Source: Sphingobacterium bovisgrunnientis (GTDB lineage: Bacteria; Bacteroidota; Bacteroidia; Sphingobacteriales; Sphingobacteriaceae). Taken from it: DNA of 64,000 bases. Below, piece after piece: positions 61,633 through 63,965 of the stretch. Both the position numbers and the translations under genes were made by a program. A model generated the notes under the pieces. That model saw only the letters and a program-made list of their open reading frames with translations, was not told the DNA's origin and made no database searches. How positions within the stretch are numbered: the stretch's first letter is position 1; each line of letters starts with the position of its first letter. The stretch covers positions 62,001-126,000 of the forward strand of contig NZ_WUQY01000002.1 in the NCBI RefSeq assembly GCF_009829085.1. The letters run 5' to 3'.

Positions 61633-62310
61633 ATGAGATTTGATATCATCACCGTATTACCATCATTACTAGAGAGTCCCTTTGCGCATTCCATTCTTCA
61701 GCGTGCCCAAAAAAAAGGAATCGCAGAAATTCATGTCCATAATCTTCGTGATTATGCCGTTAATAAACAAAAGTCTGTGGACGACTACCCCTACGGAGGA
61801 GGATCTGGTATGGTTATGCAAATTGAACCTTTTGCATTATGCATTGAAAAATTACAAAGCGAAAGAGATTATGATGACATAATTTATATGACCCCAGATG
61901 GTGTCACTTTAAATCAAAGTATTGCAAATGATTTATCCACTAAAGGAAATATTATCATCCTATGTGGTCATTATAAAGGTATAGATCAACGCATCCGCGA
62001 TGTATTCGTTACAAAAGAAATTTCTATTGGGGATTATGTACTTTCTGGTGGTGAATTACCAGCGGCTATTGTTGTTGACGCTGTAGTACGATTAATACCT
62101 GGTGTGTTATCGGATGAGACTTCTGCGCTTTCAGACTCATTTCAAGATGGGTTATTGGATGCACCGATCTATACCCGACCCGCAGAATGGCGAGGATTTC
62201 GTGTACCAGATATCTTATTGAGCGGAAATGAAGCAAAAATCAACGAATGGCGTGACGAACAGCAGCTTGTAAGAACAAGGGAAAGAAGACCTGATTTATT
62301 AAATGATTAA
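61633..62310 (+). CDS. trmD: tRNA (guanine-N1)-methyltransferase TrmD
   Basis: The 225-residue SPOUT enzyme methylates G37 of tRNAs next to the anticodon, using S-adenosylmethionine, and is essential in most bacteria. The signature stretch is complete: [54 protein letters not shown] (the trefoil knot), [30 protein letters not shown] and [21 protein letters not shown]. The start is fixed by the family N-terminus and by a -7 promoter box four bases upstream. It is separated from rimM-rpsP, unlike in many bacteria. Confidence 0.97.
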
Positions 62311-62347: not shown

Positions 62348-62378
62348 TTTGAATATATAAAATTAATTACAATATTTG
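62348..62378 (+). promoter_or_regulatory. Candidate promoter of the trp leader
   Basis: TTTG (62348-62351) and AATATTTG (62371-62378) are spaced 19 bases apart, fitting the Bacteroidota -33/-7 layout with one mismatch in the -7 box. Transcription would start about 62383-62385, at or just before the leader peptide ATG. Confidence 0.5.
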
Positions 62379-62386
62379 TATCGTTA

Positions 62387-62449
62387 ATGCAAACGATTGT
62401 TACATATCAGTATTGGTGGTGGCCTGAAGCTATAAGCATCGGGAACTAG
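62387..62449 (+). CDS. trpL: trp operon leader peptide with three consecutive Trp codons
   Basis: A 20-codon ORF, too short for usual gene calling, starts ATG at 62387 and ends TAG at 62447-62449. It encodes MQTIVTYQYWWWPEAISIGN, with Trp codons at 62414-62422. Its product is not expected to act as a protein; its translation senses charged tRNA-Trp. Just after the Trp codons the RNA can fold into a hairpin (62423-62443), and the last part of it, GCATCGGG (62436-62443), can instead pair with the 5' arm of the terminator before trpE. Three adjacent Trp codons in such a small ORF directly before trpE are very unlikely by chance. Confidence 0.88.
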   Translation: MQTIVTYQYWWWPEAISIGN

Positions 62450-62503
62450 TCTATAATGGTATTCAAGATAAAACATTTTTATTAAATCAACCAAAACCAT
62501 TTA

Positions 62504-62533
62504 AGCCCGATGTATATACATCGGGCTTTTTTT
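62504..62533 (+). terminator. Attenuator terminator upstream of trpE
   Basis: AGCCCGATGTAT (62504-62515) and ATACATCGGGCT (62516-62527) form a perfect inverted repeat, followed by a run of seven T residues to 62533. It lies 28 bases before the trpE ATG and after the Trp-rich leader peptide, so it is an intrinsic terminator inside the operon leader. Its 5' arm CCCGATG (62506-62512) can pair with leader bases 62437-62443 to form an antiterminator. Confidence 0.9.
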
Positions 62534-62561
62534 GTTATTATTGACAACTTATTTGAAAAAT

Positions 62562-63965
62562 ATGAGATATTCATTTAAAACTAATTATAAAAGAATACTA
62601 GCGGACACGACCACTCCGGTGAGTATATATTTGCGATTAAGAGATACCTTTCCAAACAGTCTCCTGTTGGAAAGTTCCGAATACCACAGCCGCGACAATA
62701 ACATCAGCTATATATGTTGCCAACAAATCGCTGGAATTATTTTAAATGACCAAGAATTATCCATATCCTACCCAAATCAACCAAAAGAAATTAAACAAGC
62801 AAGTCAAATAAATTTACGCGAAGAGGTATCTGCATTTCGCAAATCTTTTGAGGGACTTGAACTTCCAGAGGTAAATGTAATTTCTAATGGTTTATTCGGT
62901 TATTTTACATTCGATGCTGTTGAACATTTTGAAGACATCAAGCTGACCGCTGATGCAGATGACGCGCGAAATATACCTTTCATGCAATACCATGTCTACA
63001 AATATGTCATTGCTATCGACCACTTTAGAAATCAGCTTTATATTTTCGAAAATCTTTTAGATGGTGAAGAATCTGATTTAGACCGTTTAGAATATTTGAT
63101 TCAAAATAAAAACTTCCCAGAATATTCGTTTGAAGTCAAAGGAGAAGAATCTTCGAACATGACAGATGAAGAATTCAAAACCTTGGTAAACAAAATGAAA
63201 GTACATATCCAACGCGGAGACGTGTTTCAAATTGTTCCTTCAAGAGGTTTTTCAACACCTTTTGCTGGTGATGAATTCAACGTATACCGCGCACTTCGCT
63301 CGATCAATCCTTCGCCATATTTATTCTATTTCGATTATGGCGATTTCAAACTATTCGGATCTTCACCTGAAGCACAGATTACCATCAAAAAAGATGTGGC
63401 AACTATTTATCCTATTGCTGGTACTTTCAAACGAACTGGGAATCTAGAAGAGGATGAAAAAATTGCGGAATCATTAAAAAATGACCCTAAAGAATCTGCA
63501 GAACACGTGATGTTAGTGGATTTGGCGCGCAATGACTTGAGCAGACATTGTCATCATGTGGAAGTGAAATCGTACAAAGAAGCCCAATATTATTCGCATA
63601 TTATACATTTGGTATCTAAGGTATCAGGCAAATTAAAAGAGAATACCAACCCATTTGACGTTGTCGGTGACACTTATCCTGCTGGAACACTTTCGGGGGC
63701 TCCAAAGCATATGGCACTAACTCTGATTGATCGTTACGAAGGTTTGCAACGCTCTTTCTATTCGGGTGCTTTGGGTTATATGGGATTCAATGGAGATTTT
63801 AACCATGCCATCATGATTCGATCGTTCCTTAGTAAAAAGAATGTATTGCATTACCAAGCTGGTGCAGGCATTGTATTGGATTCAGATCCAGAGAAAGAAT
63901 TGCAAGAAGTAAATAACAAAATTGCTGCATTACGCAGAGCTTTAGATTTAGCTCAAAATATATGA
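62562..63965 (+). CDS. trpE: Anthranilate synthase component I
   Basis: The protein (467 residues from ATG 62562) makes anthranilate from chorismate, the first step of tryptophan synthesis. The chorismate-binding domain is clear: RGDVFQIVPSRGFSTPF, NPSPYLFYFDYGDFKLFGSSPEAQI, YPIAGTFKRTGNLEEDEKIAESLKNDPKESAEHVMLVDLARNDLSR, TYPAGTLSGAPKHMA, and FYSGALGYMGFNG before AGAGIVLDSDPEKE. PAGTLSGAPK and LARNDLSR are typical of TrpE/PabB. The Trp-codon leader upstream favours TrpE over PabB. The in-frame TTG at 62532 lies inside the terminator run and is not a likely start. A next gene begins in an ATGA overlap. Confidence 0.94.
   Translation: MRYSFKTNYKRILADTTTPVSIYLRLRDTFPNSLLLESSEYHSRDNNISYICCQQIAGIILNDQELSISYPNQPKEIKQASQINLREEVSAFRKSFEGLELPEVNVISNGLFGYFTFDAVEHFEDIKLTADADDARNIPFMQYHVYKYVIAIDHFRNQLYIFENLLDGEESDLDRLEYLIQNKNFPEYSFEVKGEESSNMTDEEFKTLVNKMKVHIQRGDVFQIVPSRGFSTPFAGDEFNVYRALRSINPSPYLFYFDYGDFKLFGSSPEAQITIKKDVATIYPIAGTFKRTGNLEEDEKIAESLKNDPKESAEHVMLVDLARNDLSRHCHHVEVKSYKEAQYYSHIIHLVSKVSGKLKENTNPFDVVGDTYPAGTLSGAPKHMALTLIDRYEGLQRSFYSGALGYMGFNGDFNHAIMIRSFLSKKNVLHYQAGAGIVLDSDPEKELQEVNNKIAALRRALDLAQNI

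Follow-up and report, generated by a model that had tools for sequence, protein, structure and literature searches.

Here, we describe a leader region of Sphingobacterium bovisgrunnientis which very probably controls the trpEGC operon by ribosome-mediated attenuation of transcription. It is part of a window of 64,000 nt, i.e. the whole stretch of DNA that was analyzed, and fills the gap between trmD (61633-62310) and trpE (62562-63965). The underlying mechanism is already known from textbooks: the locus functions like the enterobacterial trp attenuator and stands outside of its sequence family. Since the same arrangement recurs in most of the Bacteroidia sampled, it is regarded as real, but of a well-known kind.

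Leader elements and predicted promoter

The gene trpE, located on the plus strand like all features of this locus, encodes anthranilate synthase component I (Pfam PF00425 and PF04715) and heads the operon trpE-trpG-trpC, with trpG and then trpC following downstream on the contig. Its closest named relative is trpE of Sphingobacterium alimentarium with 87% identity. Upstream of trpE, the list of open reading frames (ORFs) contains a leader peptide ORF, MQTIVTYQYWWWPEAISIGN, which extends from 62387 to 62449 and comprises 20 codons and the stop codon TAG. It includes the putative sensing site, three adjacent and conserved Trp codons (TGGTGGTGG, 62414-62422), directly followed by a hairpin of segments 1 and 2 (CCTGA with TCGGG, 62423-62443). 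Unless a ribosome is stalled, this 1:2 hairpin would sequester segment 2, the antiterminator strand CATCGGG (62437-62443) inside the leader ORF. Segments 3 and 4 constitute an intrinsic terminator (62503-62533) with a stem of 11 pairs (62503-62528), a loop of 4 nt and a T7 run (62527-62533). Segment 2 and segment 3 (CCCGATG, 62506-62512) form a perfect antiterminator of 7 bp, and the 7-nt leader strand is identical to a part of the 3′ arm of the terminator. The fold of the leader RNA beats 199 of 200 dinucleotide shuffles (z = -3.4). The peptide of 20 residues with three adjacent Trp codons, the hairpin right behind them, the perfect antiterminator and the terminator had all been proposed in an earlier note on this DNA, and each of them was recovered here at the positions stated in that note.

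Promoters of Bacteroidota follow the consensus TTTG-N19-TAnnTTTG. A predicted promoter of this type is located at 62348-62378 and consists of TTTG (62348-62351), a spacer of 19 nt and the -7 box AATATTTG (62371-62378), whose first base is the single mismatch to TAnnTTTG. A study on Flavobacterium psychrophilum gives the TAnnTTTG box as well (PMC9723704). The -7 box and the ATG of the leader are 8 nt apart at this locus, and almost every locus of the genus shows a distance of 6-10 nt. For a wider comparison, 181 stretches 5′ of trpE or trpB from the class Bacteroidia were collected, a redundant sample of which 130 loci remained after the removal of near-copies. An exact TAnnTTTG is found 2-10 nt 5′ of the leader start in 66 of these 130 loci, compared with 1.2% in shuffles, and a second group in the class, to which many Flavobacteriaceae belong, has the box about 15-20 nt from the leader start. 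Transcription probably starts a few bases 5′ of the leader ATG in S. bovisgrunnientis; the promoter position puts the predicted start there, so that the term “nearly leaderless” is reasonable for the transcript we infer. Short 5′ UTRs are rare in mapped transcriptomes of the phylum, with about 3.7% of the 5′ UTRs of Bacteroides thetaiotaomicron being shorter than 10 nt (PMC7366714) and 5.5% leaderless transcripts in F. psychrophilum (PMC9723704), and thus the trp leaders seem to be enriched for near-leaderless starts. Such a start may favour fast loading of ribosomes.

The elements described suggest the following course of events. Transcription would start a few bases 5′ of the leader ATG, so that a ribosome could load almost immediately. 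When charged tRNA-Trp is scarce, this ribosome would stall at one of the three Trp codons and mask segment 1, leaving segment 2 free to pair with the emerging segment 3; the 2:3 pairing would block the terminator and RNA polymerase would continue into trpE. When Trp is plentiful, the ribosome would reach the stop codon and mask segment 2, and the 3:4 terminator would form. It would also form without a ribosome, with segment 2 sequestered in the 1:2 hairpin, and transcription would then end 5′ of trpE. In this scheme, leader translation, the site where transcription starts and the regulation by Trp are predictions from the sequence. Features of a classical attenuator found at this locus include a short ORF with WWW, whose codons specify the very amino acid that trpEGC serves to produce, a terminator separating this ORF from the first gene, an antiterminator excluding this terminator and, in the folding model only, the release of the antiterminator strand by a stalled ribosome and its coverage by a ribosome arriving at the stop codon.

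Competing pairings and their conservation

The earlier note had claimed that a ribosome stalled on the Trp codons frees the antiterminator strand and that one arriving at the stop codon covers it. Folding of the leader with a masked ribosome footprint switched in just this manner: in the model, and before segment 4 is made, the probability of the antiterminator is 1.0 with the footprint on any of the Trp codons and 0.0 with the footprint at the stop codon. The complete free leader is predicted to form the 1:2 hairpin (P 0.99) and the terminator. For the free transcript without a ribosome and before segment 4, equilibrium favours the 2:3 pairing (P 0.98), and termination without a ribosome would therefore depend on the 1:2 hairpin forming first. 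From the order of synthesis it is plausible that 1:2 folds before 2:3.

Within the genus, the regions upstream of trpE were sampled from 36 loci, and the alignments used for covariation contained 32 sequences. Segments 2 and 3 are paired in 93% of the cells of this alignment. One of their positions changes from A-U to G-C in 13 of the 32 sequences, exceeding all 500 shuffles, and three sequences break this covarying pair. The evidence from 2:3 covariation is modest, because it concerns a single position in related species. As segment 2 is coding, the exchange shows in the peptide as Ile (ATC) or Val (GTC), and it is accompanied by matching changes in both arms of the terminator. The terminator itself (3:4) has six covarying pairs with changes on both sides in the 32 sequences, and the 1:2 hairpin is paired in 96% of the cells with zero double changes.

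Across the class, the stretch behind the Trp codons pairs with the terminator better than shuffled sequences do (mean z -2.1, combined p 2e-60), and this pairing is significant (p ≤ 0.05) in 67 of the 130 non-redundant loci. The partner of segment 2 in Sphingobacterium is the 5′ arm of the terminator. In several Flavobacteriaceae, the pairing involves the loop and the 3′ arm (TCGTGA with TCACGA), and in other members of the class the 5′ arm and the loop (GTGAACAG with CTGTTCAC). It is the logic of the switch that is conserved across the class, not the sequence. Sequence, covariation and the excess of pairing together bear out the claim that the antiterminator strand copies the 3′ arm of the terminator and that the two folds are mutually exclusive.

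A leader with WW or WWW is present in all 36 genus loci, and one with WW or WxW in 169 of the 181 class stretches. The named genomes, 80 in number, include Pedobacter, Mucilaginibacter, Flavobacterium, Aquimarina, Spirosoma, Dyadobacter, Chitinophaga and Draconibacterium. Their trpE loci have a WW ORF in 67 of 80 cases, compared with 1.35% of 4,000 dinucleotide shuffles, and a WWW ORF in 53 of 80, compared with 0 of 4,000; those without WW are mostly loci of Pedobacter, which carry WxW. Since the leader ORFs are conserved far above shuffles, an origin by chance is excluded. All 130 non-redundant class loci have a terminator of -10 kcal/mol or lower in the interval from leader to gene, compared with 6 of 260 shuffles. 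The leader stays at the head of the operon, be this trpE or trpB: four genomes appear to have lost the leader at trpE because trpB heads the operon there, and the leader is located 5′ of trpB. A few genomes seem to be without a leader (e.g. loci L065 and L097), and the leaders of loci L064 and L068 contain a single Trp codon only. Conservation in relatives was the check which the earlier note had named beforehand as able to refute it, and Trp codons, terminator and competing pairing turned out to be kept genus-wide and class-wide. Its view of an isolated clean case outside the Proteobacteria has to be given up, as the arrangement is near-ubiquitous among the Bacteroidia sampled and attenuation by a leader peptide had been suggested before for F. 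psychrophilum (PMC9723704).

Three loci of Draconibacterium and Maribellus (L172, L179 and L181) carry two Trp leaders in tandem at most 400 nt 5′ of trpE. A near-identical WLPWWGLLT leader comes first and a WWW leader second, each followed by a terminator-like hairpin. The two would represent attenuators in series.

An invariant 14-nt element and alternative explanations

The longest invariant run within the leader is the linear element AATCAACCAAAACC (62485-62498), which spans 14 consecutive columns in the 32 genus sequences. Variants of it are present in Pedobacter and Mucilaginibacter, and a search for copies elsewhere in the genome yielded no excess over the control. Possible pairing partners of the element are the Trp codons and a UGGU strand 3′ of the ORF; neither of these pairings accounts for its conservation, and the attenuator model leaves it unexplained. 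Pairing of the Trp codons with CCAAAACCA, as contained in the minimum-energy fold, was rejected as the sole reason for the invariance because the WQW and WLW leaders of Pedobacter keep the element unchanged. An inner antiterminator helix (62455-62460 with 62496-62501) was rejected as well: its P is only 0.07 in S. bovisgrunnientis, and in Pedobacter the sequence behind the leader lacks a corresponding strand. A second input into the trp attenuators of the Sphingobacteriaceae, with AATCAACCAAAACC binding a dedicated factor or programming a pause of the polymerase, is conceivable but rather unlikely. If it existed, the factor or pause would keep the polymerase waiting for the first ribosome on these near-leaderless leaders.

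The same element might be taken to mean that the leader is a direct target of a protein or tRNA (TRAP-like, T-box-like or a factor on the 14-nt element) and that the peptide is secondary, given that the run is invariant in the genus without a pairing to explain this. We consider such direct binding highly improbable. No match to the TRAP gene (PF02081) was obtained in the genome, the control search being positive only in B. subtilis, and no T-box appeared in the leader region when Rfam matches with E values of up to 5 were considered. Furthermore, an element similar to AATCAACCAAAACC is not evident in families beyond the Sphingobacteriaceae in the class loci compared, whereas these families do show the Trp codons, the terminator and the competing pairing. 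At the terminator, Rfam matches to sRNAs such as CyaR all stayed below their gathering scores and were taken as chance.

There is also hardly any likelihood that the hairpin merely terminates the upstream trmD transcript and that the Trp-rich ORF is incidental. The gene trmD does precede the leader on this strand, and no second strong terminator was detected behind it. Yet the combination of promoter, Trp-codon ORF and terminator is found again at trpE or trpB in genomes whose upstream genes are quite different, and pairing of the leader with the terminator is stronger than chance. Finally, translational coupling or re-initiation instead of termination, as proposed for leader genes near structural genes in a survey including Bacteroidota (PMC4833913), would suit a leader ORF that shares one transcript with trpE, but its probability is minimal, with the leader stop 112 nt 5′ of the trpE ATG, a strong terminator in between, and distances of only 11-14 nt for the effect surveyed in Bacteroidetes. 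Ribosome-mediated attenuation is thus the explanation we prefer.

Further leaders, known systems and implications

Other biosynthetic genes of this genome are also preceded by leaders. Before the trpD cluster (stretch L208 of contig C193, 1115-1260), another leader with Trp codons, MNQFVSNKAWWHNN, precedes a hairpin and a T run; each operon of the split trp pathway seems to have an attenuator of its own. At pheA (L206, reverse strand, about 1340-1480), a Phe/Tyr-rich leader, MKNFNTYYFNFFYFSNKSWDN, is followed by a terminator whose 3′ arm repeats the leader segment CTGGGAC; this leader is a probable Phe attenuator. The gene hisG has a His-rich leader, MTKFFTYHMHTHHRHCGDM (L202, reverse strand, 1210-1269), where a strong hairpin over the leader end and no clear intrinsic terminator were found, possibly reflecting a different mode of control. 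At the ilv and thr/hom loci, no obvious attenuator was seen in the stretches examined, which included only some of the operon heads. With leaders for Trp, Phe/Tyr and His in one genome, leader-peptide attenuation appears as a habit of this genome rather than a single case.

The architecture of enterobacterial trpL comprises the leader, a 1:2 hairpin, a 2:3 antiterminator and a 3:4 terminator. Adjacent Trp codons, the pairings 1:2, 2:3 and 3:4 and the position before trpE are common to trpL of E. coli (Rfam RF00513, Trp_leader) and the leader described here. In contrast to E. coli, segment 2 is located inside the leader ORF and the Trp codons just before strand 1, the predicted promoter is near-leaderless, the 14-nt element is invariant, and no TrpR gene was found in the genome. 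The match to RF00513 reached 21.7 bits (E 0.24), compared with a gathering score of 41. The trp operon of Bacillus subtilis is controlled by TRAP through attenuation via competing RNA folds. Competing folds likewise act in the attenuator proposed here, but a Trp-codon leader ORF takes the place of TRAP. Bacteroidetes/Chlorobi were reportedly among the groups with predicted attenuators in a comparative study by Vitreschak and others from 2004. In Sinorhizobium meliloti, trpL (rnTrpL) likewise encodes a Trp leader peptide before trpE(G) and mediates attenuation without TrpR, and it is a known leaderless trp attenuator with the 5′ end of the transcript at the leader ATG (PMC7298713). The Sphingobacterium leader differs from it in phylum and sequence and in its 5′ end, which is predicted and probably lies a few bases before the ATG; in addition, no function in trans is known for the leader of Sphingobacterium. 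Within the phylum, leader-peptide attenuation has already been suggested for F. psychrophilum in a main text that does not name trpE (PMC9723704), the only statement that a search of the open literature for trp attenuators in Bacteroidota brought up.

Our results indicate ribosome-mediated Trp attenuation as a standard control of trp operons in the class Bacteroidia, where translation initiation works largely without Shine-Dalgarno sequences. As neither TrpR nor TRAP was found, this genome may rely mainly on attenuation for its control by Trp. A covariance family of Bacteroidia trp leaders could join Rfam, and the probable near-leaderless layout makes these leaders a simple test case for transcription-translation coupling in Bacteroidia.
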